Of a stretch of 64,000 bases of DNA, positions 2,672 to 18,502 are shown in pieces. The notes below the pieces were generated by a model that had not been told where the DNA came from, ran no database searches, and saw only the letters and a list, made by a program, of their open reading frames with translations. The position numbers and the translations under genes are program-made. Each line of letters begins with the position of its first letter. Positions within the stretch are counted from its first letter, which is position 1. This stretch comes from Halorubrum sp. Hd13 (GTDB taxonomy: Archaea > Halobacteriota > Halobacteria > Halobacteriales > Haloferacaceae): positions 1-64,000 of the forward strand of contig NZ_NHOY01000005.1 in NCBI RefSeq assembly GCF_002252755.1, in the 5' to 3' direction.

Positions 2672-4180
2672 TTACGCCTCTTGATCCGGCCACCGCTCGA
2701 TGTAGACGGTTTCGTCGGTGTAGAACCGGACGACGTCCTCGGCCTGCGCGTGGAGGTCGCCGAAGAACGAGTCCTTCTGACCGCCGAAGTGGAAGAACGC
2801 CATCGGGGCTGCGGTCCCGACGTTGATGCCGACGTTCCCCGCCTCGAGCTCGTGGCGGCACGTCGCCGCCTCGTCGCCGCGGTTCGTGAAGACTGACGCG
2901 GCGTTGCCGTAGCGGCTCCGGTTGGCAATGTCGACCGCTTCGTCTAGGTCACTGGCCCGAATCAGTGCCAGCACCGGTCCGAACAGCTCCTCCGTCGCGA
3001 CGGTCATCTCGGGCGTTACCTCACCGAAGACCGAGGGCGCGAGGAAGCATCCCTCCTCGGAGGCGGCCTGCTCGCGCCCGTCGAGCAGCAGTTCCGCGCC
3101 CTCCTCGACGCCGGTCTCGATGGCGGCTTCGATCCGGGCTTTGGCCTCGCCGGAGACGACCGGTCCGACATCGACGCCGTCCTCGAGGCCGTTGCCGACC
3201 GTCTGGGCCGCGGCCCGGTCGACGACCAGCTCCGCGAACTCGTCGTACACGTCGTCGTGCACGACTGCGACCGGATTCGCCAGACAGCGCTGTCCGGTGT
3301 TGGCGAACGCCGAACTCACGGTCTTCTCCGCGGCGTACGACAGATCAGCCGCGTCGCTCACGATGACGTGGTTCTTCGCGCCGCCCTGCGCCTGCACGCG
3401 CTTGCCGTTCGCGGCCGCCGTCTCGTAGACGTGTTTCGCGACATCGGTGCTCCCAACGAACGAGGCGCCGACCACGTCGTCGTGCGACAACAGCGCGTTC
3501 ACCGTGTCCGGGCCGCCGTGGACCAGCGAAACGACGCCGTCCGGGAAGCCGGCGCGCTCGAGCAGTTCGAACAGCGCGATCGCGGTGTACGGCGTCCGCT
3601 CGCTCGGCTTAAGTACGAACGCGTTCCCGCACGCGACCGCGTACGGGAGGAACCACAGCGGGATCATGCCGGGGAAGTTGAACGGCGTGATCGCGGTGAA
3701 CACGCCGAGCGGATGGCGGACCGCTGTCTCGTCGATTCCCGGCGCGGCGTGCTGGAGGTGACCGCCCTGCAGCAGCGTCGGCGCGCCGCACGCCACCTCG
3801 ACGTTTTCGATCCCGCGGCGGAGTTCGCCTTCGGCCTCCGCTCGCGTTTTCCCGTGTTCGCGGACGAGCAGTTCTGCGATCTCTGACTGGTGTTCCTCCA
3901 GCAGCGACTTGAACCGGAAGAGCGGCTGAATACGATCTTCGACCGGCGTCTGCCGCCACTCCTCGAACGCTTCGTCCGCCACGCCGACCGCGGCGTCAAC
4001 GTCGGACTCGGTACTGTTCGGCGTCTCGCCGAGCGCCTCGCCGGTCGCCGGGTCGACGACCGTCTCGGCGACACCGCCGCTCGGGCGCGTCCACTCGCCG
4101 CCGACGTAGTTCGCCATCGGCCGGTCGAGGAGGTCGTGTAGGTCGGTGGCTTCCTGCTCGCCGGTTCCTTCGAGGCTCAT
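2672..4180 (-). CDS. mmsA: CoA-acylating (methyl)malonate-semialdehyde dehydrogenase
   Basis: A 502-residue aldehyde dehydrogenase. The nucleophile is Cys299 in NTGQRCLANP. Where ordinary ALDHs have the general base in ELGGKNP, this protein reads QGGAKNH, the known signature of the CoA-dependent MmsA subgroup. Members convert methylmalonate or malonate semialdehyde plus CoA to propionyl-CoA or acetyl-CoA. FNFPGMIPLW (about 168-177) matches the same subgroup. The ATG overlaps the stop of the upstream saccharopine-dehydrogenase-like gene by 4 bp (ATGA), which indicates translational coupling. In this cluster it would be the step that feeds carbon into central metabolism, for example malonate semialdehyde from beta-alanine. 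Confidence 0.9.
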   Translation of the reverse strand: MSLEGTGEQEATDLHDLLDRPMANYVGGEWTRPSGGVAETVVDPATGEALGETPNSTESDVDAAVGVADEAFEEWRQTPVEDRIQPLFRFKSLLEEHQSEIAELLVREHGKTRAEAEGELRRGIENVEVACGAPTLLQGGHLQHAAPGIDETAVRHPLGVFTAITPFNFPGMIPLWFLPYAVACGNAFVLKPSERTPYTAIALFELLERAGFPDGVVSLVHGGPDTVNALLSHDDVVGASFVGSTDVAKHVYETAAANGKRVQAQGGAKNHVIVSDAADLSYAAEKTVSSAFANTGQRCLANPVAVVHDDVYDEFAELVVDRAAAQTVGNGLEDGVDVGPVVSGEAKARIEAAIETGVEEGAELLLDGREQAASEEGCFLAPSVFGEVTPEMTVATEELFGPVLALIRASDLDEAVDIANRSRYGNAASVFTNRGDEAATCRHELEAGNVGINVGTAAPMAFFHFGGQKDSFFGDLHAQAEDVVRFYTDETVYIERWPDQEA

Positions 4181-5313
4181 TCGATCTGCTCCCCTTCGAT
4201 GACGATCTCACGGCCCGCGAGCTCGTCGATGAACTGCTCGGGATCGAACAGCTCCTCCGGCGGCTTCGCGCCGTCGGCCGTCGCGTCGCCCTGTCCGACG
4301 AGCACTGCCGCGATCCCCATCGGGACGCCGGTCCAGACGGCGGTCGCCTTCAGTCCCCAGTCGTCGAGGCGCGATTCGACCACGGTCGAGTACCGGTATT
4401 GAGCGTGCTCGCCGTCTTCCGTCCCGGCGACGTCGACGCGGAAGGACTTCCACTCCTCGACCGGGCCGGGCTTCGGTTGCCGGTCGAGGTGCCAATCGAG
4501 GAACTCGCGGGGCGAGGTCTCGACGCCCTTGTACTCGACGGGCTCCTCGCTGGTGAGGTTCAGCCCGATGAGCACGTCGCAGATGTTGACGAGGTCGGGC
4601 GAGAATGCGACCCGGAAGTCGACGTCCTCGACGCCGGGGAACGTGGTCGGCATCGTCGCCAGCTCGGAGTGGATGCTGTGGAACCCCTCGACCTCGCCGA
4701 CCGGCGACGGCATCGTGTACGTCTCGCGGCCGGAGAGCGGATCGAGCGTCCGGTACTCGCCGTCCTCGTAGACGATTGGGTCCATCGTCAGCTCGTCGAG
4801 GATCGTCTTCGCGGAGTAGGCGAAGCCCTCGCCGCCGCCGCGCGCGCCGGTGCGAATGTGAATCGATTCGACCTCGTCGAGGCGGCTCGCCCCCATCGCG
4901 GTCGCGATGTTCGTCAACCCCGGGCTGGCACCCATTCCGAGGACGGCGGTCAGGCCGGCGTCGGCGAACATCTCGTCATACGCTAGCTGGTCCTGCGTCT
5001 TGTGGTACAGTCCGCCGAGGTCGAGGTAGTGACAGTCGGCGTCGAGACAGGCCTCCATCACCGCGACGTTGAACGCGTACGGGAGCGCGTTGGCGACCAC
5101 GTCTGCGTCGGCTATCGTCTCGACCACGCTCTCGTGATCGGTCACGTCGACGCGCGCCGTCTCGACGTCACCCGGGAGCTCGGCGGCGAACTCGTCGGCG
5201 GAGTCGATGTCCGCGTCCGCGATGAGGAGGTCGTCGACCGCCTCGTTCTCCGCGAGTTCCCACGACGTCGCTCTACCCATCGCGCCGCAACCGCCCAGCG
5301 CGACGACTCTCAT
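4177..5313 (-). CDS. Saccharopine dehydrogenase / lysine-6-dehydrogenase-like oxidoreductase
   Basis: A 378-residue NAD(P)-dependent enzyme of the saccharopine dehydrogenase superfamily. The Rossmann loop GGCGAMG lies at residues 7-13, followed by the acidic strand end LLIADAD and the conserved NALPYAFN and YHKTQDQ segments. The start at 5313 begins MRVVALGGCG; an upstream in-frame ATG would add 20 residues that look non-coding. The chosen start overlaps the upstream ALDH stop by 4 bp. Homologues include lysine 6-dehydrogenase (lysine to allysine) and carboxynorspermidine-type reductases. Oxidation or reduction of a basic amino acid or polyamine adduct fits the neighbouring transporter and aldehyde dehydrogenases. 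Confidence 0.82.
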   Translation of the reverse strand: MRVVALGGCGAMGRATSWELAENEAVDDLLIADADIDSADEFAAELPGDVETARVDVTDHESVVETIADADVVANALPYAFNVAVMEACLDADCHYLDLGGLYHKTQDQLAYDEMFADAGLTAVLGMGASPGLTNIATAMGASRLDEVESIHIRTGARGGGEGFAYSAKTILDELTMDPIVYEDGEYRTLDPLSGRETYTMPSPVGEVEGFHSIHSELATMPTTFPGVEDVDFRVAFSPDLVNICDVLIGLNLTSEEPVEYKGVETSPREFLDWHLDRQPKPGPVEEWKSFRVDVAGTEDGEHAQYRYSTVVESRLDDWGLKATAVWTGVPMGIAAVLVGQGDATADGAKPPEELFDPEQFIDELAGREIVIEGEQIE

Positions 5314-6737
5314 TCGGTGCCTCCGTAGTTCATCATCACAGATTTCACTTGTGTCATAGCTTCTAAGTGCCACTTACTGCCGTACCGCCCGCCCGAACCG
5401 CTCTCGCCGTAGCCGCCGAACGGGAGCAGTCGTTCCCAGTAGTTGTTCGTCTCGTTGATGAACACGCCACCTGCCTTGATGCGGTTCGCGGCGTCGTGAG
5501 CGCGTTCCAGCGAATCGGTGAATATCGCCGCCTGCAGCCCGTACGGCGAGCGGTTCGCGATCTCGATCGCCTCTTCGTACGACGACGCGGTGAGAACCGG
5601 CGTCACCGGGCCGAACGTCTCCTCGGTGGCGACGTCCATCTCCTCGGTCACGCCGTCGAGCACGGCCGGCGTGAAGAACAGCCCGTCCGTCTCCCCGCCG
5701 GTCCGGACCGTCGCGCCGCGCTCCACGGCGTCGTCGAAGTGCGCGCGGGCCTTCGACTGGATCCGCTCGGAGATCATCGGGCCGACGTCGACCCCGTCCT
5801 CGAAGGGGTCACCGAGTACGAGGTCCTCGGTCCGCTCCACGATGGCGTCGACGAGCTCGTCGTGGACGCCCTCGGTCGCGATGACGCGCTCCGTCGCACA
5901 GCAGACCTGCCCCGCGTTCCAGTTGCTGCCCGAGACGATGCTGTCGGCCGCGTGCTCCACGTCCGCGTCGTCGAGGACGACGATCGGGTCCTTCCCGCCG
6001 AGCTCCAACAGACACTGGGCGTTGCGCTCGGCCGCCGTCTCCGCGATCTCCTGGCCGACCGCGCTGCTGCCGGTAAACGCGATGAGCCGGATGTCGCGGT
6101 TACCGACGAGCGCCGCACCGGTGTCGCCGTCGCCGGTGACGAGGTTGAACGCTCCGTCCGGGAGGCTCGACTGCGCGAACGCCTTCGCGATGTGGTACGC
6201 CGTCAGCGGCGTCTCCTCCGCCGGCTTGAACACGACCGGATTGGCCGTCGCGACGGCGGAGTAGATGCTGCCGCCGGGAATCTCCAGCGGGAAGTTCCAC
6301 GGGGAGATCACCGCGCACGGCCCGTACGGCTCGCGCTGCGTGTACGCGAACCGGTCGCGCCACTCAGAGGGGACGACGTCGCCGAACAGGCGAATGGCGT
6401 CGTGCGCGTAGTCCTCGCTGGACTCGATGACGTACTCGGTCTCCTCGTAGGACTCGTGGAGGGGTTTCCCCTCTTCCTCGGTGATCCCCTCAGCGATCTC
6501 GTCCTCGTGTTCCTCGAAGTAGTCCGTCACCTCCTCGAGCACCTCCGCGCGCTCGAACGCGGTCATCTCTTCGAGTTCCGTCTGGGCTCGGCGCGCGGCG
6601 TCGACCGCGGCCGCCACGTCCCGGTCGTTCGCCTGCGGGACCGTGTCGATGACCTCTCCCGAGACGGGAGAGACGACGTCGATCCCGGCCGACGATTCCG
6701 AGTCGACCCACTCTCCGTCGATGTACAGTTGGCGCAT
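5310..6737 (-). CDS. NAD(P)-dependent aldehyde dehydrogenase
   Basis: A 475-residue ALDH-superfamily enzyme starting MRQLYIDGEW. The general base is Glu246 in LLELGGKDP and the nucleophile is about Cys279 in NAGQVCCATERV. SPWNFPLEIPGG and FTGSSAVGQE are the expected NAD-site segments. An upstream in-frame ATG at 6773 would add 12 non-homologous residues, so 6737 was chosen. A short untranslated region (6738-6890) separates it from the second ALDH and contains a TATA-like TTTTTCATG (minus strand), so a secondary promoter is likely. It would oxidise an amino- or semialdehyde made by the amine oxidase or dehydrogenase of the cluster. Confidence 0.9.
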   Translation of the reverse strand: MRQLYIDGEWVDSESSAGIDVVSPVSGEVIDTVPQANDRDVAAAVDAARRAQTELEEMTAFERAEVLEEVTDYFEEHEDEIAEGITEEEGKPLHESYEETEYVIESSEDYAHDAIRLFGDVVPSEWRDRFAYTQREPYGPCAVISPWNFPLEIPGGSIYSAVATANPVVFKPAEETPLTAYHIAKAFAQSSLPDGAFNLVTGDGDTGAALVGNRDIRLIAFTGSSAVGQEIAETAAERNAQCLLELGGKDPIVVLDDADVEHAADSIVSGSNWNAGQVCCATERVIATEGVHDELVDAIVERTEDLVLGDPFEDGVDVGPMISERIQSKARAHFDDAVERGATVRTGGETDGLFFTPAVLDGVTEEMDVATEETFGPVTPVLTASSYEEAIEIANRSPYGLQAAIFTDSLERAHDAANRIKAGGVFINETNNYWERLLPFGGYGESGSGGRYGSKWHLEAMTQVKSVMMNYGGTE

Positions 6738-6890
6738 GTGTCGTGTCCTCGGTGGCCATACAGCAACCCCCATGAAAAATCTTTCTCGATACGCCCCATT
6801 TCACCGAATTATATTCGGCAATCTGCGATCCAGAGGGGAATACCAACGGGTGTTCGCCGCTTATCGAGCGAAATTGTCTGCCCTGCGCGC

Positions 6891-8399
6891 TCAGTACGGG
6901 GGCTCGTCGAGCGCGAGGTTGACCGACTTCGATCGGGTGTGTTCTTCGAGCGCCTGCTGTGCGCACTCGCGGCCGAAGCCGGACTGCTTGAACCCGCCGA
7001 AGGGCGTGCCGGGAACCGTTCCGAAGTACTGGTTGACCCAGACGCTCCCCGCTTCGACGTCGGCGGCCGCGCGGTGGGCCACGGACGGGTTCTCGGTCGC
7101 GATTCCCGCCGTGAGTCCGTATTCGACGCCGTTGGCGATCTCGATCGCCTCCGCGTAGTCCGAGAACGTCATGAGGAACTGCACCGGGCCGAACACCTCC
7201 TCTTGGGCGATCCGCATGTCCGGGTCAACGTCGTCGAAGACGGTCGGCTGGTAGAAGGCGCCGTCGGCGTACTCGTCGCCCTCCGGGGCCTCGCCGCCGC
7301 TGAGGACGGTCGCTCCCTCATCGCGACCCACTTCGACGTAGTCGTCGACGCTCTGACGGTGGCCCTCGTAGGCCAACGGACCCATCACCGCTCCGTCTTC
7401 GAGCGGATCGCCGGGCTCCCAGCCGGCGAGTTCCTCTAGGTACGCGTCGACGAATTCGTCTTTCACGTCCTCGTGGACGAGGAGTCGCGTCGCCGAGTCG
7501 CAGGACTGGCCCGCGTTGTACATCCCGCCGGTCGCGGCGTTCGCGGCCGCCTCCTCGACGTCGGCGTCCGGGAAGACGATGAACGGGTTCTTGCCGCCAA
7601 GTTCGAGCGTCACGGGCGTGACGCTGTCCGCGGCGGTCCGCATGATCGACTGGCCGACGGGGACGGAGCCCGTGAACGACACCTTCCCCACGTCGGGATG
7701 GTCGATGATCGGCTCGCCCACGTCGGCTCCGGAGCCCGGAACGACGTTTATCACACCGTCGGGGAGGACGCCGTCGGCCAACTGCGCGGCCCGGATTACC
7801 GACAGCGGGGCCGGACTCGGTGGCTTGACGACCGTCGTGTTCCCGGCCGCCAGCGCCGCCCCGACCTTCCACCCCATCAGCAGGATCGGGTAGTTCCACG
7901 GGAGGATCTGTCCCGTGACGCCGTACGGCTCCTGCCGGACGTACGCATGCGAATCCGTTCCGGTCGGAACGTATTCGCCTTCCTGCGCGACCGAGACGTT
8001 CGCGTAGTACTCGAAGAAGTCGAGGCCGTTCTCGATGTCCGCCTTCGCGTACGCGAGCGGTTTGCCGACCTCCAGCGTCTGGAGGAGCGCCAGCTCGTCG
8101 ACGTTCTCCCGCATCTCCTCGACCCACGCGCGAAGCAGCGCCGCCCGGTCGCCCGCGTCCATCGCTCCCCAGCCGTCGTCGAACGCGGCGTCGGCCGCCG
8201 CGACGGCGTCGTCGACGTCAGCGCCGCCGCACTGCGCGACGGCCGTTATCGGCTCGTCGACCGACGGGTCGGTCGGTTCGAACGTCTCTCCGTCGCTCGC
8301 CGGTCGCGTGTCCCCGTCGACGTACGCCCCGAAGTCGAGCTCAGCGATTTCACCGTGCGCCTGTTCGTGTCGGTCCCGAATCGTACCTGTGAAGTTCAT
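6891..8399 (-). CDS. Aldehyde dehydrogenase, betaine-aldehyde/aminobutyraldehyde type
   Basis: A 502-residue ALDH of the betaine-aldehyde or 4-aminobutyraldehyde dehydrogenase type. It has the active-site glutamate in LELGGKNPF, the nucleophile in YNAGQSCDSATR, and the segments ILPWNYPILLMGWK and FTGSVPVGQ. The C-terminus GGFKQSGFGRECAQQAL matches the usual GGxKxSGxGRE ending. It lies directly downstream of the polyamine-type ABC transporter genes. An omega-aminoaldehyde such as 4-aminobutanal or 3-aminopropanal is therefore a sensible substrate, but this is inferred from context. Confidence 0.88.
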   Translation of the reverse strand: MNFTGTIRDRHEQAHGEIAELDFGAYVDGDTRPASDGETFEPTDPSVDEPITAVAQCGGADVDDAVAAADAAFDDGWGAMDAGDRAALLRAWVEEMRENVDELALLQTLEVGKPLAYAKADIENGLDFFEYYANVSVAQEGEYVPTGTDSHAYVRQEPYGVTGQILPWNYPILLMGWKVGAALAAGNTTVVKPPSPAPLSVIRAAQLADGVLPDGVINVVPGSGADVGEPIIDHPDVGKVSFTGSVPVGQSIMRTAADSVTPVTLELGGKNPFIVFPDADVEEAAANAATGGMYNAGQSCDSATRLLVHEDVKDEFVDAYLEELAGWEPGDPLEDGAVMGPLAYEGHRQSVDDYVEVGRDEGATVLSGGEAPEGDEYADGAFYQPTVFDDVDPDMRIAQEEVFGPVQFLMTFSDYAEAIEIANGVEYGLTAGIATENPSVAHRAAADVEAGSVWVNQYFGTVPGTPFGGFKQSGFGRECAQQALEEHTRSKSVNLALDEPPY

Positions 8400-8533: not shown

Positions 8534-9667
8534 TTACTCGGTGAGTACCACGCTGTTCTCGGACGCCCAGCCGATCTGAACCGTCTCGCCCGGCTGGAGG
8601 TACGAGCCCTGGTCGCGGATCTGCATGTCCACGGTGAACTGCTCGCCGTCGTCCAACCGAACGACGAACTTGCCGAGATTCCCCTTGTAGATCTCGTCGA
8701 TGATCTCCGCCTGGAAGCTGTTGTCGAGCCCGACGGCGTCGTCGCCGATACGGATCTTCTCCGGTCGGACGGCGAATCCGGCCGTCGGTCCGGCCGCTGA
8801 ATTCTCCGGGACGCGATACGAGCGGCCATTCCGCCGAATGGTCGCTCCCTCGGCGTTTTCCGAGTAGTCGCCGCGGACCAGGTTCGTCTCGCCGATGAAG
8901 TCCGCGACGAACTCCGTCGCGGGCTCCTCGTAGATCTCGGTGGCGGTGCCGAGCTGCTCGACGTGGCCGTCGTTCATCACCGCGATCTGGTCGCTCATCG
9001 TGAGCGCCTCCTCCTGATCGTGGGTGACGTAGACGAACGTCGTGTTCAGCTCCTCCTGTAAGTTCTTCAGTTCGACCTGCATGTTCTGTCGGAGCTTCAG
9101 GTCCAACGCCCCGAGCGGCTCGTCGAGGAGGAGCACGGCCGGTTCCGTGATGAGCGCCCGCGCCAGCGCGATACGCTGTTGCTGGCCGCCGGAGAGCTCG
9201 CTCACCTGCCGGTCTTTGGTCCCCGGCAGTTCGACGAGTTCGAGCATCTCCTCGACGCGCGATTCGATCTCCTCGTTGGATCCGCGACGCACGAGCCGCT
9301 TGATCGACCGGCCGACGCCGCCGCGGCCCTCCTCGCCGCTCTCGTCGACGCCCTGCATCTGAAGCCCGAAGGCCACGTTCTCGCCGACGGTCATGTGCGG
9401 GAACAGCGCGTACGACTGGAACACCATACTGGTGTTGCGCTCGAACGGCGGGACGCGCGTCACGTCCTCGTCTTTGATGTACACCGCGCCCTCCGTCGGC
9501 GTCTCGAAGCCGTCGATACAGCGGAGGAGCGTTGTCTTTCCGCACCCGCTCGGTCCGAGCAGCGTGAGGAACTCGCCCGACTCGACACGGAGGTCGACGT
9601 CGTCGACCGCGGTGACGTCGTCGAACCGCTTCGTCACGCCCTCCAGTCGGACGTCGTAGTCCGTCAT
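8534..9667 (-). CDS. potA: PotA-type ABC transporter ATP-binding protein
   Basis: A 377-residue ATPase subunit of a spermidine/putrescine-type importer. Walker A is GPSGCGKT at residues 38-45; the ABC signature is LSGGQQQR and Walker B is LLLDEPLGALD. The switch His is in VYVTHDQEEALT. A C-terminal TOBE regulatory domain follows (FAVRPEKIRIG onward). A charged insertion of about 30 residues (ESGEEGRGGVGRSIKRLV region) sits in the helical domain. The gene lies 3 bp after the substrate-binding protein gene and belongs to the order potB-potC-potD-potA. Polyamines are the usual cargo of the family; other cationic amines are possible. Confidence 0.92.
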   Translation of the reverse strand: MTDYDVRLEGVTKRFDDVTAVDDVDLRVESGEFLTLLGPSGCGKTTLLRCIDGFETPTEGAVYIKDEDVTRVPPFERNTSMVFQSYALFPHMTVGENVAFGLQMQGVDESGEEGRGGVGRSIKRLVRRGSNEEIESRVEEMLELVELPGTKDRQVSELSGGQQQRIALARALITEPAVLLLDEPLGALDLKLRQNMQVELKNLQEELNTTFVYVTHDQEEALTMSDQIAVMNDGHVEQLGTATEIYEEPATEFVADFIGETNLVRGDYSENAEGATIRRNGRSYRVPENSAAGPTAGFAVRPEKIRIGDDAVGLDNSFQAEIIDEIYKGNLGKFVVRLDDGEQFTVDMQIRDQGSYLQPGETVQIGWASENSVVLTE

Positions 9668-9670
9668 TCC

Positions 9671-10873
9671 TCAGGCGCTCTTGATCTCTTGCCAGGCGTT
9701 GCTGTACAGCGTCGTCGCCTGACCGATGTTCTCGATGAATTCGAGGTTGCTCATCGTCTCGTCGTCGGGATAGATCGACTCGTTGTCGAGGATCTCGTCG
9801 AGGATGTACTCCTCGGCGGCCTCGTTGGGGCTCCCGTAGTACGTGTAGTTCGTGATCTCGGCGCCGACCTCGGCGTCGAGGAAGTGATTGATGAACGCGT
9901 GCGCCGCGTTGACGTTCTCCGCCTCGGCGGTGATCGCGGCGGTGTCGACCCACACGACGCCGCCCTCCTCCGGAATAACGTAGTTGACCGGGGAGCTCCC
10001 GTCCTCGAACGTCTCCCAGTACGCTTGGAACGCGCCGCCGGACCACGCGTGGAGCGGGCTGAGCTGCTCGTTGATCAGGTTCGTCGGGAAGTTCGACGAG
10101 TCGTACGTCGCGAGGAGGTCCTTCTGCTCGATGAGCAGCTCCTTCGCCTCCTCGATCTCGGACTCCTCGGTCGTGTTGAGGGAGTAGCCGAGGTACTTCA
10201 GCGCGGCGCCCATCGTCTCGCGCACGTCGTCGAGCATCGACATCTGCCCCGAGAACTCCTCGTTCCACATCGTCTCCCACGAGTTCACCTCGATGTCGCC
10301 GACCATCTCCTCGTTGTACGCGATCCCGGACGTGCCCCACTGGTACGGGACGGAGAACCGCTGCTCCCCGGGGTCGTACGGCGCCTCGCGGAACATCTCG
10401 GAGAGGTTCCCGAAGTTCGGTATGGCGTCGAGGTTAAGCGGCTGAACCATGTCCTGCTCGTTCAGGATGTTCACCATGTAGTCGCTCGGGAAGATCAGGT
10501 CGTACTGACCCGTTCCGCCCGCGTTCAGCGCGTTGAACATCTCCTCGTTCGAGGAGTACAGCGAGACGGAGACGGAGACGTCGTACTCCTCTTCGAAGCC
10601 GCTGATGAAGCCGTCGGGCCAGTAGTCGCCCCACTGGAAGATGCGGAGCTCGTCCTCGAGCTCGTCGCCGTCGTCACTCCCGTCGCTGCCGTCGCTGCCG
10701 TCGCTGCCGTCGCTCCCGTCGCTGCCGTCACTTCCGTCGCTGCCGTCACTCCCGTCGCTGCCGTCGCCGCCTCCGCCGCTACATCCCGCGAGTCCGACGA
10801 GCCCGGCCGCCGAGACGGCGCCTGTGGTCCGAAGGAACGTTCGCCGATCGCTGGTGGATTGCTGTTGTGGCAT
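9671..10873 (-). CDS. potD: PotD-type substrate-binding lipoprotein with Tat signal and GSD linker
   Basis: A 400-residue extracellular binding protein for a polyamine-type importer. The N-terminus has a twin-arginine signal (RRTFLRTTG) and a lipobox (GLAGC), so it should be exported folded and lipid-anchored. A low-complexity Gly-Ser-Asp linker follows at about residues 33-67. The binding-protein body begins LRIFQWGDYWPDGF, the characteristic PotD opening, and contains IAYNEEMVGD and YVIPEEGGVVWVDTAAI. The linker probably keeps the receptor clear of the S-layer zone. The upstream gap (10874-10964) holds a TATA-like AAATATTTATGG, so the gene may have its own promoter. Confidence 0.92.
   Translation of the reverse strand: MPQQQSTSDRRTFLRTTGAVSAAGLVGLAGCSGGGGDGSDGSDGSDGSDGSDGSDGSDGSDGSDGSDDGDELEDELRIFQWGDYWPDGFISGFEEEYDVSVSVSLYSSNEEMFNALNAGGTGQYDLIFPSDYMVNILNEQDMVQPLNLDAIPNFGNLSEMFREAPYDPGEQRFSVPYQWGTSGIAYNEEMVGDIEVNSWETMWNEEFSGQMSMLDDVRETMGAALKYLGYSLNTTEESEIEEAKELLIEQKDLLATYDSSNFPTNLINEQLSPLHAWSGGAFQAYWETFEDGSSPVNYVIPEEGGVVWVDTAAITAEAENVNAAHAFINHFLDAEVGAEITNYTYYGSPNEAAEEYILDEILDNESIYPDDETMSNLEFIENIGQATTLYSNAWQEIKSA
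10673..10768 (-). repeat. 9-bp tandem repeat encoding (Gly-Ser-Asp)n
   Basis: About ten near-identical 9-bp units (plus-strand form GTCGCTGCC with synonymous changes) encode the GSD linker of the binding protein. Repeats of this kind can change length by slippage without breaking the frame. Confidence 0.85.
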
Positions 10874-10964: not shown

Positions 10965-11792
10965 TCACCAGGTCGGACCCTGAAACCATTGGGCGACGGC
11001 GACGAGAGCCATGGTGACGACGATGATCAGCGCCGCGACGACGTTGACGCCGGGCGAGATCCCCTGCCGGACCATCCCGAAGAAGAAGATCGGGAGCGTG
11101 TTCTCCTGCCCGATGATGAAGAAGGTGACCACGAAGTCGTCGAAGCTCATCGCGAACGCGAGCAGCGCGCCCGCGAGGATCCCCGGTTTGATCATCGGAA
11201 GCGTCACGAACCGGAACGTCTCCAACTCGTTCGCGCCGAGGTCCATCGCGGCCTCTTCCATCGTCTGATCGAATGTCTGTAGCCGCGCGGCGACGACGAC
11301 CGCGACGAAGCTGATTCCGAACGCGACGTGGCCGATGATCGCGGTCCCGATCCCCAACTGGATCCCGACGATGTTGAAGAACAACAGCAGCGAGATTCCC
11401 ATCACGATGCTCGGGATGATGATCGGCATGAACACGACGCCGGTGAACAGCCGCTTGCCGGGGAAGTCGTAGCGGTCGAGGGCGAACGCCAGCATCGTCC
11501 CGAACACGCAGCTGATGACGACCGTCGCCGCGGCGATCTCGACCGAGTTGAGCAGCGCGTTCCACGCGGCGTTCGGGTCGACCCTGGCGACCGTTTCGCC
11601 CTGCAGCAGCGCCGTGTACCACTTCGTCGTGAACCCCTGCCAGACGACCGCGTACCGCGAGTCGTTGAACGAGAGCGTGATCAACACCGCGATCGGGAGG
11701 TAGAGGAACAGGTAGACGAACGCCGTCTGGGCCAGCAGGAACCCGGAACCGCGCTCGAACAGCGACGCGCGCGCTCGGCGGAACGCGCCCAT
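10965..11792 (-). CDS. potC: PotC-type ABC transporter permease
   Basis: A 275-residue inner permease with about six membrane segments. The EAA loop is EEAAMDLGANELETFRFVTLP, the contact site for the ATPase. The ATG at 11790-11792 shares one base with the stop of the preceding permease (TGATG), so the pair is translationally coupled; a GTG one codon upstream is also open. PIIIPSIVMGISLLLFF and the final SFDDFVVTFFIIGQENTLP are typical of PotC. It works with the neighbouring PotB, PotD and PotA. Confidence 0.9.
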   Translation of the reverse strand: MGAFRRARASLFERGSGFLLAQTAFVYLFLYLPIAVLITLSFNDSRYAVVWQGFTTKWYTALLQGETVARVDPNAAWNALLNSVEIAAATVVISCVFGTMLAFALDRYDFPGKRLFTGVVFMPIIIPSIVMGISLLLFFNIVGIQLGIGTAIIGHVAFGISFVAVVVAARLQTFDQTMEEAAMDLGANELETFRFVTLPMIKPGILAGALLAFAMSFDDFVVTFFIIGQENTLPIFFFGMVRQGISPGVNVVAALIIVVTMALVAVAQWFQGPTW

Positions 11793-12802
11793 CACGCGAG
11801 CTCACCCCCGCCGCGTTGGTAGGCGGCGATGCTGAGCAGCATGATCCCCATGAGGACGAACGCGCCCGCGGCTCCGAACGGCCAGTGGCCGGCCGAACCG
11901 AACTGGCTGGCGATGAAGTTCCCGATCATCTGACTGTCGGTGCCGCCGAGCAGTTCGGGGATCACGTACGCGCCCGCGCTCGGAATGAACACGAGGATGC
12001 TTCCCGCCATGACGCCCGGCTTCGACTGCGGGAAAATGACGTAGTAGAACGCCTCGAAGCGGTCAGCGCCGAGGTCCATCGCCGCCTCTTGGAGCGTGAA
12101 GTCGATCTCCTCGATGCTGGAGTACACGGGGAGGATCATAAACGGGATCCAGATGTAGACGAGCCCGAGGAGGACCGCGAACTGCGAGTTCATCAGCGAG
12201 ACCCCCTGCTCGACGAACGGGAGCACCGCGAACGCGCTCATCAGGACGCTGTTGGCCGACAACAGCAGTTGGATGGCGTAGATCCGGACGAGGAATGAGG
12301 CCCAGAACGGGAGGATGACGAGCACGACGAGGAGGTTCTGGTACTCCTCGGGAGCGATGTGGCCGATGTAGTAGGCCATCGGGTAGCCGACGACGAACGA
12401 GACCACCGTCGCGAGGATCCCGTAGCCGATGCTTTTGAAGAGGAGCCTGACGTACGGCGTCGGCTGCGTCGACGAGAGCGTCTGCGTTCCGGGAATCACC
12501 GTGTCGATCAGCCACGCGACCGTCGCCCAGAGCGCGCCGAGCATCGAGGCCTCCCCGGGGACGAAGAACCGGCGGTACTGCTGGAAGCCGAGGTTCTCGG
12601 TCGCGAGCAGGACCTCGCCGAACGCGCCTCGTTCGCCGAAGCTGAAGAAGAACATCACGGCGAGCGGTGCCAAAAAGAAGACGCCGAGCCAGAACGCGCT
12701 CGGTGCGAGGTTGACGATCGCACCGGTCCACTGGTTCCGGCGAACGCGCTGAACCAGCTGCGCGTCGACGCCCGACGCCCGATTGTTGGTATCGCGTCCC
12801 AT
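11792..12802 (-). CDS. potB: PotB-type ABC transporter permease
   Basis: A 336-residue permease with six predicted membrane helices, first gene of the leftward run. The EAA motif is QEAAMDLGADRFEAFYYVIFP. FIPSAGAYVIPELLGG near the C-terminus matches the conserved PotB segment. A poorly conserved N-terminal extension of about 60 residues precedes the first helix. The promoter region 12803-12980 is shared with the divergent Lrp-type regulator. A minus-strand TATA-like ATATTTCATG lies about 26 nt before the ATG, inside an inverted repeat at 12823-12845. Confidence 0.9.
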   Translation of the reverse strand: MGRDTNNRASGVDAQLVQRVRRNQWTGAIVNLAPSAFWLGVFFLAPLAVMFFFSFGERGAFGEVLLATENLGFQQYRRFFVPGEASMLGALWATVAWLIDTVIPGTQTLSSTQPTPYVRLLFKSIGYGILATVVSFVVGYPMAYYIGHIAPEEYQNLLVVLVILPFWASFLVRIYAIQLLLSANSVLMSAFAVLPFVEQGVSLMNSQFAVLLGLVYIWIPFMILPVYSSIEEIDFTLQEAAMDLGADRFEAFYYVIFPQSKPGVMAGSILVFIPSAGAYVIPELLGGTDSQMIGNFIASQFGSAGHWPFGAAGAFVLMGIMLLSIAAYQRGGGELA

Positions 12803-12822
12803 TCTCTCGTTGGCGTACCACA

Positions 12823-12845
12823 GCCCACATGAAATATGTTTGGGC
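12823..12845. promoter_or_regulatory. Inverted repeat over the potB promoter, candidate Lrp operator
   Basis: GCCCACAT and ATGTTTGGGC face each other around GAAAT, with GCCCA/TGGGC as perfect outer arms. The site overlaps the TATA-like element of the leftward operon and lies 135 bp before the Lrp-type gene. Lrp-family regulators commonly bind such AT-centred palindromes. Binding here is inferred. Confidence 0.45.
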
Positions 12846-12980
12846 GAATTCGATACTTACAGACAAACGTACGAGGAGAACCGCAGTTGAGGAAATATTA
12901 TCATGATAGATACCGTACCGACGAATAAACTCGTGCGATCAAACAAAACACATAGGGACCCGGCCATCGAATCACCCGGT

Positions 12981-13433
12981 ATGGACATCGACGAGGTCGA
13001 CCGGAAGATTCTCGCTATCCTTCAGGTCGACGGTAGGGCGGCTCTCTCCGAGATCGCGAGACGGCTTGATATGGGAACGGCGACCATTCATGAACGAACG
13101 AAGGCATTGGAAGAAGAGGGGTACATCCGCGATTACCGCGCGGTGCTCGATCCGGAGCTGCTCGAACGCAACGAGGTCGGCTTCATCCGCATCGTGGCGA
13201 CGGCCGGCCGGTCGTCGGAAGTCGCCGAACGCCTCGTTGAGGTGACGGCGATCCAAGAGATCCACGAGCTCACGGGCGATGCGGACCTGTTATTGAAGGT
13301 CCGCGTCGCCGACCGCCAAGAGATGACTGAACTGCTGCGAGAGATCGGTCAGTTCGAGGGCGTCGAGAGCACCGCGACTGACATCGCGCTCCGGAGCGTT
13401 AAGGAAGAACACACGCTGCGCATAGACGAATGA
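12981..13433 (+). CDS. Lrp/AsnC-family transcriptional regulator
   Basis: A 150-residue regulator with an N-terminal winged helix-turn-helix (DEVDRKILAILQVDGRAALS through TIHERTKALEEEGYI) and a C-terminal RAM ligand-binding domain (FIRIVATAGRSSEVAERLVE onward). The start at 12981 gives the standard Lrp opening MDIDEVDRKIL; the longer open frame from 12903 adds 26 residues without homology. The gene is divergent from the nine-gene catabolic operon and overlaps the next gene by 4 bp (ATGA). It is therefore the likely local regulator, sensing an amino acid or amine. Confidence 0.9.
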   Translation: MDIDEVDRKILAILQVDGRAALSEIARRLDMGTATIHERTKALEEEGYIRDYRAVLDPELLERNEVGFIRIVATAGRSSEVAERLVEVTAIQEIHELTGDADLLLKVRVADRQEMTELLREIGQFEGVESTATDIALRSVKEEHTLRIDE

Positions 13434-14320
13434 ACGAAATCTGGGACCTCGAACCGTCCGTCAGATCGGAGTACGGCTCGCTCGAACAGGTCCTGGTCCA
13501 CGAGCCGGGCGAGGAGTTCAAATCGGTAGTTGATCCGGACACGTGGAACTGGGACGGGCTGCCGCGTCAGGAGAAAGCCGCCAAAGAGCACCGTTCGCTA
13601 GTGGAGGAACTGGAGGCACACGGCGTCGAAGTGCTCACGCTCGAGGGCGTTATGGGGAGCCTCGCGGAATCGCTGTTCGTTCGCGACGTCGGGTTCGCGA
13701 TCGGCGGCGGAATGGTGATCGGGAAGATGGTGGAAGAGACCCGACACGGGGAGGAACGCCGACTCTCCGAGCGCATGATGGAGCTGGGAGCGCCGATTTA
13801 TCACACCGTTCACGGCGACGGCGGCTTCGAGGCCGGAAACATGGTTTGGATCGACCGAGATACCGTCGCTATCGGTCGATCGCAGACCACCAACGCGGCC
13901 GGGATCCGACAGGTCCGGAGCGTCTTGGAGACGTTTGGGGTCGAAGTGGTCGAAGTACCGATATTCGGCAGCACGGAGAGCACCGGCCAGACGCATCTCG
14001 CCTTGGTGTTCGGCATGGTCGCGCCCGATCTCGCGCTCGTCTACTCCGAGGCCGTTCCTCCGGAGTTCCTCGACATGCTCCACGACCGGGGCATCGAAAC
14101 GGTCTCGGTTCCGATGCGGGAGCAGCGCAACCGGGCGACGAGCGCCATCGTCGTCGATCCAGGGACCGTGCTCCTCCCCTCCGGGAACCACGAGGTGCGC
14201 GCCGCTCTCACCGACCGCGACTTCCACGTTATCGAGTTGACCCTCAGGGAAATCAGGAAGGCGGGGGGCGGTCCGCAGGGACTCGTGCTCCCGCTGTCTC
14301 GAACTGTTACCGGAGAATAA
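13430..14320 (+). CDS. Arginine deiminase/DDAH-like protein lacking all cysteines
   Basis: A 296-residue protein of the guanidino-group-modifying (amidinotransferase/deiminase) fold. Family landmarks are visible: FVRDVGFAIGGGMVIGKM (about 83-100), FEAGNMVWID (133-142), THLALVFGM (188-196) and the closing RKAGGGPQGLVLPLSR (276-291). In active deiminases the last segment carries the nucleophilic Cys (GGxxC); here that position is Gly284 and the whole protein has no cysteine. The HxD motif is HLA (His189, Ala191) and the EGGD motif is EAGN. It is either a non-catalytic ligand-binding relative or uses other chemistry. The overlap with the Lrp gene suggests a sensing or modifying role tied to that regulator. 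Confidence 0.75.
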   Translation: MNEIWDLEPSVRSEYGSLEQVLVHEPGEEFKSVVDPDTWNWDGLPRQEKAAKEHRSLVEELEAHGVEVLTLEGVMGSLAESLFVRDVGFAIGGGMVIGKMVEETRHGEERRLSERMMELGAPIYHTVHGDGGFEAGNMVWIDRDTVAIGRSQTTNAAGIRQVRSVLETFGVEVVEVPIFGSTESTGQTHLALVFGMVAPDLALVYSEAVPPEFLDMLHDRGIETVSVPMREQRNRATSAIVVDPGTVLLPSGNHEVRAALTDRDFHVIELTLREIRKAGGGPQGLVLPLSRTVTGE

Positions 14321-14398: not shown

Positions 14399-15784
14399 AT
14401 GAGCCTCGGTGACAAGGAGCGCGACCATGCACGCCCGTTGGAAGAGAAGACGTCGAACAGCCGGGAGTTTCACCGGCGCGCGTCGAACGTAACACCGCTC
14501 GGGGTCGAGTCGAACGTGCGTTCGTTCGACCCGTACCCGTTCTACATTGAGGAGACGGACGGCTCGTACGTCTACGACATGGACGATAACGAGTATCTGG
14601 ACTTCCTCCTAGCGCTCGGTCCGATCATCCTCGGACACGGCCATCCCGAGGTCAAAGACGCCGTCAAACGGCAGGTCGAGCAGAGCGATCTGACCGCGAC
14701 GCCGCAGCCGGTCGCCATCGAGTTCATGGAGAAGGTCTGCGAAATGGTCCCCTCCATCGAGTCTGTTCGGATGGCGAACAGCGGCACGGAGGCGACGATG
14801 CACGCGCTCCGAGTCGCTCGGTCGTACACCGGGAAAGAGAAGATTGCCAAACCCGAGGGGGGATACGCGGGCGCGCACGACTACGCGCTACAGAGCGTCT
14901 ACGCCAGCGAGGAGGCGCTCGGTCCCGAGGACGAACCGAACACGGTGTCGTACGGGACGGGAATCCCCGACGCGGTGAGCGAGACGGTCGTCGCGTTCCC
15001 CTTCAACGACAAGGAGGCGACCGAGAAGATCCTCCGGAAGCACGCCGATGACATGGCGGCCGTGATCATCGAGCCGGTGATGTTCTCGTGCGGTTGTCTC
15101 AAGCCTCGCGACGGGTATCACGAGTTCCTCCGCGAACTGACAGAGGAGCTCGACATCGTCCTCATCTGGGACGAGGTGATGACCGGCTTCCGGCTGGGGC
15201 CGCAGTCCGCACAAGGTCGGTTCGGCGTCACGCCGGACATGACGACGTTCGCGAAGGCCGCCGGCGCCGGCTATCAAGTCGCCGGATTCGGCGGTCGAGA
15301 GGACATCATGGAGGAGATCATCCCGCCGAGAAAGAAAGAAGCCTCCAAGTGGAACTCGTCGGCGTTCCACGGCGGCACGTACAATGGACACCCGGTCGCG
15401 GCTGCGGCCGGCCTGAAGACCCTGGAGATACTTGACGAGCGCGACGTGTACGAACACATCGACCGTCTCGGCGACAAACTGTTCACCGGGCTTCAGGAAG
15501 CCGCCGACGACGTCGGGCTCCCGGTCAATGTCGAACACATCGGCTCGATGGGACAGGTGTACATGACCGACCACGACATCCACGCGTATCGTGACACGTG
15601 GCACGCAAACACCGATCGATTCGCCGACTGGTGGATGGAAGCTGCGGCCGGCGGCGTCCTCTTCGGTAACCCGCTGCAGGGCGAGCGGTTCTTCACGACG
15701 TACACTCACACCGACGAGGAGGTCGACCACGCACTGGAGGTCGCGGAAGACGCGTTCCGCTCGGTCGACCACCAGTACGAGTGA
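14399..15784 (+). CDS. Class III aminotransferase (glutamate-1-semialdehyde aminomutase-like)
   Basis: A 461-residue PLP enzyme. The Schiff-base lysine is Lys286 in TTFAKAAGAGYQ. DEVMTGFR (258-265) and MANSGTEATMHALR (about 125-138) match the GSA-aminomutase branch of class III transaminases. Its insertion PRKKEASKWNSSAFHGGTY and its place in a catabolic cluster argue against a role in tetrapyrrole synthesis. An omega-amine or beta-amino acid such as beta-alanine is a reasonable amino donor, because the resulting malonate semialdehyde would suit the MmsA-type enzyme of the divergent operon. Confidence 0.85.
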   Translation: MSLGDKERDHARPLEEKTSNSREFHRRASNVTPLGVESNVRSFDPYPFYIEETDGSYVYDMDDNEYLDFLLALGPIILGHGHPEVKDAVKRQVEQSDLTATPQPVAIEFMEKVCEMVPSIESVRMANSGTEATMHALRVARSYTGKEKIAKPEGGYAGAHDYALQSVYASEEALGPEDEPNTVSYGTGIPDAVSETVVAFPFNDKEATEKILRKHADDMAAVIIEPVMFSCGCLKPRDGYHEFLRELTEELDIVLIWDEVMTGFRLGPQSAQGRFGVTPDMTTFAKAAGAGYQVAGFGGREDIMEEIIPPRKKEASKWNSSAFHGGTYNGHPVAAAAGLKTLEILDERDVYEHIDRLGDKLFTGLQEAADDVGLPVNVEHIGSMGQVYMTDHDIHAYRDTWHANTDRFADWWMEAAAGGVLFGNPLQGERFFTTYTHTDEEVDHALEVAEDAFRSVDHQYE

Positions 15785-15839: not shown

Positions 15840-17051
15840 ATGACGGGCGGCGATCTCGGGAAGACAAACGAACCGCTCGAACTCCCGGGGAGCAGAAGCG
15901 GAGACGACCCGTCTGTCGTGATCGTCGGCGGCGGCGTGATCGGCTGTGCGGCCGCCCGCGAGCTCGCGCCGGACCATCGCGTACTCCTGCTCGAACGCGA
16001 CCAGATCGCGAGCGGAGCGACGGCACGGGCAGCGGGTGAGGTGACGATGGAGCCCTCCTACACGGACTACCCGGAGATCGCCGATTACGCGACCGACTTC
16101 TTCAGAAGGTACGACGGAACGGGCTCGTTCGAGTACACCCAGACGCCGAGCGCGGAACTCGTTACCCCTGACCGTGAGGACGAGGCACGTGCGCGCGTGG
16201 ACCGTCTTCGAAAGGACGGAGTTGAGGTTGCGTTTTTGGAGCCGTCGGAGGTCGAGGATCGGTGGCCGCAGATCGACCCATCATCGTTCGCCGGTACGGT
16301 TCGGTTCACAGACACAGGTCACCTCGATCCGTACACACTCACGACGACGCTACAGTCCGACGCCGAGGCGCACGATGCTCGCTTCGAGACCGGGGTGACC
16401 GTAACGGAGATCCTCGAAGACGGCGAACGAGTCACTGGCGTCGACACCGAAGACGGGGCGATACGCAGCGACAACGTCCTCGTGGCCACCGGCTGGCGCG
16501 TCAACGAGTTACTGACTCCCATTCTGGAAGTTCCGATTCGACCGTACCGGACGCAGTGTCTGGTCTTGCGTCCGGACTCGTCGTTGTCCGACGCCTTCCC
16601 GATGGGGTGGATTCCCGGCGAGCACGTCTACTTCCGTCGCGAGGGGAACGGGGATCTCCTCGTCGGCGGCTGGTCGTTCGCCGAGGACGATCCCACGGCA
16701 GCGAGCGAACGTGCCGACGAAGCGTTCCAGGACCACGTCGCCGGCCTCGTTCCGCGGTTCCTCCGGGCAGATGGTCGCCTCCGTGTGGTCGACGGCTGGG
16801 CGGGAATCGACGGGGCAACGCCCGACACGCGTCCGATAATCGACTCGCCGGCGGACGCTCCCGACGGCCTCGTCATCGCCGCCGGATTCCACGGACGCGG
16901 TGTGATGTCCGCACCCGTCGCCGGGCGGCTCGTCCGGTGTCTCACGACCGGCGAGGATCCGCCAGTCCCGACCAGGCCGTTCTCACTGTCTCGGTTCGAT
17001 TCTCGAAGCCCAGACTTCGAGTTCCTGAGTATCAGTGCCGGTGGGGACTGA
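15840..17051 (+). CDS. FAD-dependent amine/D-amino acid oxidase (DAO family)
   Basis: A 403-residue FAD oxidoreductase. The dinucleotide-binding loop is VVIVGGGVIGCAAAREL (Gly30-Gly35 core), followed by the acidic strand LLLERD. The C-terminal GFHGRGVMSAPVAGRL is the conserved FAD-closing motif of the DAO/sarcosine-oxidase family. These enzymes oxidise secondary or primary amines to imines and aldehydes. It ends the rightward arm of the catabolic cluster, 55 bp after the aminotransferase, and would supply an aldehyde to the two ALDHs. Confidence 0.88.
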   Translation: MTGGDLGKTNEPLELPGSRSGDDPSVVIVGGGVIGCAAARELAPDHRVLLLERDQIASGATARAAGEVTMEPSYTDYPEIADYATDFFRRYDGTGSFEYTQTPSAELVTPDREDEARARVDRLRKDGVEVAFLEPSEVEDRWPQIDPSSFAGTVRFTDTGHLDPYTLTTTLQSDAEAHDARFETGVTVTEILEDGERVTGVDTEDGAIRSDNVLVATGWRVNELLTPILEVPIRPYRTQCLVLRPDSSLSDAFPMGWIPGEHVYFRREGNGDLLVGGWSFAEDDPTAASERADEAFQDHVAGLVPRFLRADGRLRVVDGWAGIDGATPDTRPIIDSPADAPDGLVIAAGFHGRGVMSAPVAGRLVRCLTTGEDPPVPTRPFSLSRFDSRSPDFEFLSISAGGD

Positions 17052-17929: not shown

Positions 17930-18502
17930 ATGACGGATTCGATAGATCCGGCGATCCCGCTCGACACCACCGAATCGGTCGAATGGTCCGGCCGCCCGCG
18001 GGTCACTACCGTCCTTCCAGCAGTCGTGGTCGGCGTTCTCCTCATCGTCTCCGGAATCGTGGTCAGCGTTGCCAGAGGGACCCCGCTCTTCCTCGCGGTC
18101 GTTCCACTCGGAGCGGCGATCCCGCTTTGGAACTATTTCGCTCTCCAAGGCGTGCAGTACGTGATAACGGAGGAAGCACTCTACGTGAAACGCGGCGTGT
18201 TGACCCGGTCTGTGACACAGGCGAACCTCGAAACCGTCCAGAACAGCTCCTTCGAGCAGGACATCACGGGGTCGATTTTCGGATACGGCTCAGTGACGTT
18301 CGAAATCGCCGGTGGGGACGACCTCTCGTTCCGGGCGATCGAAGACCCTCGTGCCATCCGGGCACTCGTCGATCGAACGGCAGCGAACGACGACGGTCTC
18401 GGTGGAGACGGTCGACGGGAATCCGGCATCCCCGGAGATCTGACGCAGTGGCGGCAAATTCGTGACGAGATACGAGCGCTTCGCAGCTCTCTCGAAGAGT
18501 AG
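17930..18502 (+). CDS. PH-domain (bPH2/YdbT-like) membrane protein
   Basis: A 190-residue partner of the upstream PH-domain protein. Two adjacent membrane helices (VLPAVVVGVLLIVSGIVVSV and LFLAVVPLGAAIPLWNYF) lead into a PH domain (YVITEEALYVKRGVLTRSV) with FGYGSVTFEI. The ending WRQIRDEIRALRSSLEE resembles the C-terminal helix of the first protein, so the two may pair through it. Tandem YdbS/YdbT genes are widespread; their role at the membrane is poorly defined. Confidence 0.82.
   Translation: MTDSIDPAIPLDTTESVEWSGRPRVTTVLPAVVVGVLLIVSGIVVSVARGTPLFLAVVPLGAAIPLWNYFALQGVQYVITEEALYVKRGVLTRSVTQANLETVQNSSFEQDITGSIFGYGSVTFEIAGGDDLSFRAIEDPRAIRALVDRTAANDDGLGGDGRRESGIPGDLTQWRQIRDEIRALRSSLEE

Follow-up and report, generated by a model that had tools for sequence, protein, structure and literature searches.

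An Arginine Deiminase-like Protein without the Nucleophilic Cysteine Coupled to an Lrp-type Regulator in a Putative Polyamine-type Operon of Haloarchaea

RESULTS

Organization of the ADIx Locus in Halorubrum sp. Hd13

The window analyzed here, i.e. the whole stretch of 64,000 nucleotides from contig NZ_NHOY01000005.1 of Halorubrum sp. Hd13, contains an open reading frame, termed ADIx, that encodes 296 amino acids with zero Cys and whose start overlaps the stop codon of an Lrp gene by 4 bp (ATGA at 13430-13433). The coordinates, length, absence of Cys, residue numbering (Gly284, Ala191 and Asn137) and overlap given in an earlier sequence-only reading proved exact. The genes and features around ADIx are as follows.

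1103..2668, minus strand: amidohydrolase family 3 protein, possible end of the operon (homology)
2672..4180, minus strand: methylmalonate-semialdehyde dehydrogenase (TIGR01722, above cut-off)
4177..5373, minus strand: saccharopine-dehydrogenase-like protein, whose closest solved relative is carboxyspermidine dehydrogenase 8deb (homology)
5310..6773, minus strand: ALDH2, aldehyde dehydrogenase (homology)
6891..8399, minus strand: ALDH1, aldehyde dehydrogenase of the betaine/aminobutyraldehyde dehydrogenase type (homology)
8534..9667, minus strand: PotA-like ABC ATPase (homology)
9671..10873, minus strand: PotD-like binding protein of the spermidine/putrescine type (homology)
10965..11795, minus strand: PotC-like ABC permease (homology)
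11792..12802, minus strand: PotB-like ABC permease, divergent from Lrp (homology)
12803..12980, no strand: divergent promoter region with conserved boxes (aligned loci)
12981..13433, plus strand: Lrp/AsnC-family regulator, 150 amino acids from a conserved MDIDE start (the mechanical open reading frame starts at 12903)
13430..14320, plus strand: ADIx, Cys-less protein of the ADI/DDAH superfamily, 296 amino acids, with D86, R105, E134 and H189 kept and R153T, D191A, N238S and C284G (plus N137) changed (profiles, alignments)
14399..15784, plus strand: AT3, class III aminotransferase closest to proteins of the glutamate-1-semialdehyde aminomutase type (homology)
15840..17051, plus strand: DAO, FAD-dependent oxidoreductase of the sarcosine/glycine oxidase type (homology)

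The start of the Lrp gene is more likely to lie at 12981 than at 12903. The potB-Lrp intergenic region carries the box AAATAN[GC]TTT[TG]G in 11 of the 11 aligned loci and, in most of them, a CAAAACACATAGG-like box ahead of Lrp; an inverted repeat was looked for in this region and none was found. As judged by homology, the Lrp-ADIx setting looks built for polyamine use, i.e. a polyamine-type catabolic operon with a putative substrate.

The gene order Lrp-ADIx-AT3-DAO was constant in 18 ortholog loci (16 genomes and two Haladaptatus). A second DAO-like gene lies between ADIx and AT3 in two of them, and an extra class III aminotransferase gene, whose product is 26-29% identical to AT3, between AT3 and DAO in seven (L034, L036, L037, L038, L043, L044 and L049); the latter is absent from the Halorubrum sp. 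Hd13 window. The PotABCD genes are present in 17 of the 18 loci and are not found near ADIx in genome G017, the saccharopine-like gene was found in 12 of the 17 ADIx genomes and ALDH2 in 13 of the 17. A nitrilase-type CN hydrolase, which scored 38 bits against the AguB model (cut-off 410), is encoded ahead of Lrp in three Haladaptatus loci and in genome G383. Two minor features of the window are a long (GSD)n linker past the lipobox Cys of the PotD-like lipoprotein (about 10669-10780), possibly a length-variable repeat, and a bPH_2 (bacterial PH domain) protein encoded at 17930-18502, downstream of DAO, the open reading frame before it looking similar.

Family Assignment of ADIx

ADIx exceeded the gathering scores of the Pfam families ADI (PF02274; E 2.2e-18, 66.9 bits vs 22.8) and DDAH_eukar (PF19420; E 4.4e-17, 62.7 bits vs 23), and by these sequence profiles it is a member of the ADI/DDAH (guanidino-modifying enzyme (GME), pentein) superfamily. 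It lay far under the cut-off of every NCBIfam functional model matched: it fell short of the arcA equivalog (91.3 vs 489.1 bits) and of the dimethylargininase model (62.2 vs 340 bits), the Cys expected of a DDAH also being missing, and no agmatine deiminase family appeared among its Pfam or NCBIfam matches at E <= 0.001. The public annotation of ADIx genes, "arginine deiminase family protein," is misleading as to function and is contradicted by the residues described below. An AlphaFold2 model from nine sequences (pLDDT 52, pTM 0.56) was of too low confidence for judging the five-bladed beta/alpha propeller of the superfamily or for placing pocket residues, and the Foldseek matches of this low-confidence model (ADI, NnhA, AGAT and DDAH at 1e-8 to 1e-6, TM about 0.4) simply repeated the family. 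No second PF02274 protein was found in the host genome and no relatives in viral contigs (four queries) or a phage collection; the open-licence literature searched yielded no report of an archaeal Cys-less ADI relative.

Active-site Residues of ADIx

When ADIx was aligned with solved ADI and DDAH, Gly284 took the position of the nucleophilic Cys, His189 that of the catalytic His, Ala191 that of the Asp of HxD, Glu134 that of the triad Glu (the Glu of the EGG motif), Asn137 that of the final D of EGGD, where active enzymes usually have Asp, and Ser238 that of the conserved Asn. The alignment thus bore out the fold landmarks that had been read from the sequence, with the Cys replaced by Gly284, HxD by HLA and EGGD by EAGN, and it added the N238S and R153T changes and the retained His-Glu dyad. 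In addition, Asp86 aligned with the guanidino-binding Asp of the FxRD motif and Glu80 with the position of an acid in DDAH. At the two carboxylate-binding Arg positions Arg105 is kept and Thr153 replaces Arg; which of them plays which part in carboxylate binding is an assignment that we presume here. Both ADI and DDAH bind the substrate carboxylate through two Arg, according to the NnhA report (PMC11659421). Arg150, invariant and near Thr153, might compensate, and the pocket would be altered rather than erased and still fit for a cationic ligand.

A functional comparison is provided by NnhA, the 2-nitroimidazole nitrohydrolase, a hydrolase of the same superfamily for which Table 1 of the report lists the C357A, C357S, D262N, N311D, H260N and H260F variants as each inactive (PMC11659421). 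The equivalents of C357, D262 and N311 are replaced in ADIx, i.e. three of these four mutated positions, and those of H260 and E197 are kept. Because DDAH has a Lys at the D262 position, as stated there (PMC11659421), Ala191 alone would not rule out activity; as the Cys is missing, the thiouronium mechanism of ADI, DDAH and NnhA is very unlikely for ADIx.

The loop ahead of His189, GST-x-STGQTH, has S181, T182, S184, G186, Q187 and T188 in 19 of 19 sequences and T185 in at least 90%. It aligns without gaps with canonical ADI 4bof and has the same length, so the idea of a new loop invented by ADIx was dropped. In ADI, the residue directly preceding the catalytic His (Met312) is described as touching the substrate (PMC3474736).

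Conservation of ADIx and Selection

A search of 391 Halobacteria genomes (E <= 1e-10) gave matches in 18, namely 17 ADIx orthologs (the Halorubrum sp. Hd13 gene and 16 others at 65-96%) plus a single distant protein that contains the Cys. Together with Haladaptatus and Natribaculum records, and counting Natribaculum luteum once (L013/L024, one record), 21 distinct orthologs were compared. Gly284, Asn137, Ser238 and Thr153 are present in 21 of 21, as are the guanidino-binding Asp86 and the general base pair Glu134 and His189, and Ala191 is present in 20, the remaining one having Thr; the Gly284/Ala191/Asn137 set pointed out from the single sequence is conserved in the clade. Of the arginine deiminase set formed by the HxD Asp, the conserved Asn and the two carboxylate Arg, the clade keeps R105 alone.

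The position equivalent to Gly284 is occupied by Cys in 25 of the 25 other relatives aligned, which comprise 17 bacterial plasmid proteins (of 26 non-haloarchaeal plasmid matches, 30 plasmid matches overall) and eight archaeal loci, six from a different family (f13) within the phylum and two other haloarchaeal ones; nine bacterial plasmid matches (H14, H15, H17, H19, H20, H23, H25, H26 and H27) lie outside this count. No ADIx ortholog keeps the Cys, nor is there a conserved Cys elsewhere in the protein; a Cys retained or moved in this way would have spoken against the proposal of a nucleophile-free protein. The observation that ADIx has no cysteine at all holds for the Halorubrum sp. Hd13 protein; it is no conserved trait of the clade, since only 11 of the 21 orthologs have none and the others have one to three, scattered and never at 284. 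When all 296 columns were scanned for clade-fixed differences, the result was just R153T, D191A, N238S, C284G and the loop right before His189. Asn137 is the weakest of the Gly284/Ala191/Asn137 set because several Cys-containing relatives also lack the Asp there (four Ser, one Gly).

The ADIx clade is monophyletic (100/100). Its placement beside a Thermomicrobium/Ensifer/Kozakia/Shinella group had weak support (80/32) with a long-branch warning and was not used. ADIx gave dN/dS values of 0.07-0.15 in ten pairs (0.105, 0.077 and 0.131 against three relatives), whereas the same comparison gave 0.05-0.09 for AT3, 0.10-0.26 for potA and potB and 0.21-0.36 for DAO; the ADIx values are lower than or similar to those of the operon genes for the transporter and the aldehyde dehydrogenases. 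The ADIx clade is, therefore, under strong purifying selection. The invariant residues were not significantly clustered around the old active site (49% vs 32%, matched by 32 of 295 circular shifts). Among the bacterial relatives, we also noticed a Cys-bearing ADI-like subfamily with EGG[SG] for EGGD (L020, L021, L022 and L025), which in Kozakia and Shinella adjoins ABC transporter and M20 or Xaa-Pro peptidase genes.

Association of ADIx with Lrp and Its Natural Loss

Of the 391 genomes, the 17 with an Lrp ortholog (61-100% identical) are the very ones that carry ADIx, the best Lrp in any other genome reaching at most 43% identity, and the ATGA overlap is found in 18 of 19 cases; the tight link to Lrp is thus seen across the clade. 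It may, nevertheless, mean just an operon-specific regulator, since AT3 and DAO are equally faithful companions of ADIx; Lrp also carries its own ligand-binding domain (PF01037).

Genome G292 retains potB and AT3 and has neither Lrp nor ADIx. Between potB and AT3 lies a degenerate stretch left over from the 3' end of ADIx (locus L092, 9356-9650), with local DNA scores of 76, 82 and 60 against three relatives vs 28-29 for the best of 300 shuffles each; at the protein level the match was weak (E 0.05 and 0.2, in two frames). Because the G292 aminotransferase groups inside an ADIx-bearing clade (100/99), this genome represents a loss of the ADIx/Lrp pair. A ligase of the glutamine-synthetase family is encoded 9.5 kb away, and G292 shows that the transporter and the aminotransferase are able to outlast ADIx once the neighborhood has changed.

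AT3 Clusters with and without ADIx

AT3 is more widely distributed than ADIx, being present in 28 of the 391 genomes, and in the 11 that lack ADIx the Lrp ortholog is likewise absent. Of these 11 genomes, 7 encode a glutamine-synthetase-family ligase no more than 10 kb from AT3 vs 0 of the 17 with ADIx (Fisher p about 0.0003, calculated by hand and ignoring relatedness; the label needs three changes on the AT3 tree); 5 of the 17 encode such a ligase elsewhere in the genome. One ligase cluster (L096) also contains a GATase and two DAO genes. The ligase scores under the cut-offs of gamma-glutamylputrescine synthetase and glutamine synthetase; by analogy with GlnA-2 of Haloferax mediterranei (PMC8394153), we infer that it would ligate polyamines.

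DISCUSSION

The ADIx clade has lost the nucleophile of its family while staying under selection in its operon context, where it co-occurs exactly with Lrp and has been lost together with it. The guanidino-modifying hydrolases and amidinotransferases compared here all act via a covalent Cys adduct. The clade is, thus, a natural test of the GME fold without covalent catalysis, in which the nucleophile, a substrate Asp and a conserved Asn are gone and the His-Glu pair of the general base is kept together with the guanidino-binding Asp. With the nucleophile gone, ADIx must either serve in binding or rely on a chemistry that is not known for the family.

ADIx shares with arginine deiminase (ArcA; PF02274, TIGR01078) the fold signature, the N-terminal VLVHEPG region, the REQ motif, the FxRD Asp, the Glu of the EGG motif, the His and the C-terminal GG..LPxxR, but it differs in the missing Cys, in the HxD Asp (Ala), the conserved Asn (Ser) and the second carboxylate Arg (Thr), and in lacking the helical insert (296 vs about 410 amino acids). 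It resembles DDAH (dimethylargininase) in its size without insert, overall profile match, EAG[DN] motif and HL-x for HxD, but has Gly for Cys and scores far under the DDAH model cut-offs. NnhA, matched by profile and Foldseek, likewise belongs to the GME superfamily and has been adapted to a different substrate; unlike ADIx, it keeps and requires Cys357, Asp262, Asn311 and His260, according to its report (PMC11659421). A precedent for a member of this fold without the nucleophile is RESC5, a kinetoplastid RNA-editing protein of trypanosomes that has a DDAH fold and in which, as described, Cys is replaced by Ala and His by Pro and much of the substrate pocket is retained in a pseudoenzyme-like member (PMC9980740). 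As in RESC5, a residue essential for catalysis is gone from ADIx, here throughout a clade under purifying selection, but RESC5 has also lost the His and is part of an RNA-editing complex core (PMC9980740), whereas ADIx keeps His and Glu and is a prokaryotic protein, encoded behind Lrp in an archaeal catabolic operon.

The reading that we tentatively put first is that ADIx is a pseudoenzyme that binds a ligand and acts together with Lrp or with the enzymes of the operon. As to ligand class, absence of catalysis and contact with Lrp, we infer that it would bind a small cationic metabolite of the polyamine-type operon in the old ADI pocket, would act without covalent thiouronium chemistry, would be produced together with Lrp through ATGA coupling as a putative ligand-binding partner, and would report this metabolite either to Lrp or to the operon's aminotransferase or oxidoreductase. 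In favor of this reading are Gly284 in 21 of 21 orthologs against Cys in 25 of 25 relatives, with the group-specific fixed changes limited to R153T, D191A, N238S, C284G and the loop before His189, the fact that three positions changed in ADIx are each essential in NnhA by the reported variants (PMC11659421), the dN/dS of 0.08-0.13 against three relatives, the lack of another PF02274 protein in the genome to supply the chemistry, and, for the tie to Lrp, the shared 17 of 391 genomes, the ATGA overlap in 18 of 19 and the joint loss in G292. Against it, the invariance of Asp86, Glu134 and His189 goes beyond the needs of a pure sensor or scaffold and the clustering of invariant residues at the former active site is not significant, and the role as Lrp partner has to face the ligand domain of Lrp itself and companions, AT3 and DAO, as constant as Lrp. 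The sequence-only reading had proposed a pseudoenzyme that senses arginine, agmatine or a methylated form for the regulator. A nucleophile-free family member fixed in an Lrp-linked clade is indeed what we find; the ligand and sensing part fares less well in view of Thr153 in 21 of 21 orthologs, the polyamine-type neighbors, the ligand domain of Lrp and the equal constancy of AT3 and DAO. Its alternative of an enzyme with a new mechanism is kept in play by the invariant Asp86, Glu134 and His189.

Such an active enzyme with a Cys-independent mechanism is a close rival with a substantial, if smaller, chance of being right. His189-Glu134 would activate water directly, Asp86 and Arg105 would hold the substrate, and the product would feed the aldehyde dehydrogenases and the aminotransferase; the reaction might be the deprotection step done in the gamma-glutamyl route by ligase and amidotransferase, e.g. 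guanidino or carbamoyl removal from an oxidized agmatine-type intermediate. The invariance of D86, E134 and H189 and a constraint resembling that of the undisputed operon enzymes agree with this possibility, as do the ligase near AT3 in 7 of 11 genomes without ADIx and 0 of 17 with it, the existence of polyamine-acting GME enzymes (HsvA, by its PDB title), and the CN hydrolase before Lrp in three Haladaptatus loci and G383, placed as a carbamoyl amidase might be but only weakly AguB-like (38 bits vs 410). We know of no precedent in the ADI/DDAH fold for direct water attack on a guanidinium without thiol or metal, which counts against a Cys-independent enzyme, as does the reported inactivity of NnhA upon changing any one of the three positions altered in ADIx (PMC11659421). 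In its most specific form, which we consider unlikely, ADIx would be the first Cys-independent hydrolase of the GME superfamily, in which His189-Glu134 would direct water, in a single step, at a polyamine intermediate protected by a guanidino or carbamoyl group, with guanidino replacing gamma-glutamyl as the protecting group; if true, guanidino protection would be an alternative to the ligase/amidotransferase route found in sister clusters.

Pseudoenzyme subunits are a familiar theme in polyamine metabolism, the AdoMetDC prozyme being an example, and the Lrp-ADIx-AT3-DAO neighborhood, irreducible in all 18 loci, would suit a protein that serves AT3, DAO or some other enzyme of the operon as a structural or allosteric subunit and has no part in ligand sensing; since AT3 occurs without ADIx in 11 of 28 genomes and the genome encodes no catalytic ADI paralog to activate, we regard this as improbable, and a prozyme for a live ADI is rejected by the lack of a second PF02274 protein. 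Still less probable is that ADIx works as an ordinary deiminase with its nucleophile relocated, e.g. to a Ser or Thr of the GST-x-STGQTH loop: this loop is nearly invariant and adjoins the catalytic His, and the residue preceding that His in ADI (Met312) is reported to contact the substrate (PMC3474736), but its length is that of canonical ADI 4bof, so that no new architecture is seen, and no reliable model (pLDDT 52) brings a hydroxyl group to the carbon that reacts. The lost catalytic residue and the real remnant in one relative (G292) could bring to mind a pseudogene in decay or a sequencing error; this is scarcely credible and is refuted for the Halorubrum sp. Hd13 gene by the same substitutions in 21 genomes, dN/dS of about 0.1 and intact frames.

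Whatever the role of ADIx, it marks an uncharacterized archaeal polyamine-type operon that exists in two alternative versions. The clustering of PotABCD, a DAO-family oxidase, aldehyde dehydrogenase and class III aminotransferase resembles Puu-type gamma-glutamyl polyamine catabolism, and AT3 orthologs occur in clusters of this kind; unlike the Puu-type route, the ADIx version has, in 17 of 17 genomes, no ligase resembling glutamine synthetase at 10 kb or less from AT3. Other haloarchaea, including Halorubrum-genus relatives, encode long ADI-like proteins of 409-448 amino acids with Cys (L152-L155, L158 and L163) that score far under the arcA cut-off; by eye, six longer haloarchaeal ADI-like proteins show the Cys motif GG[IV]HCM.
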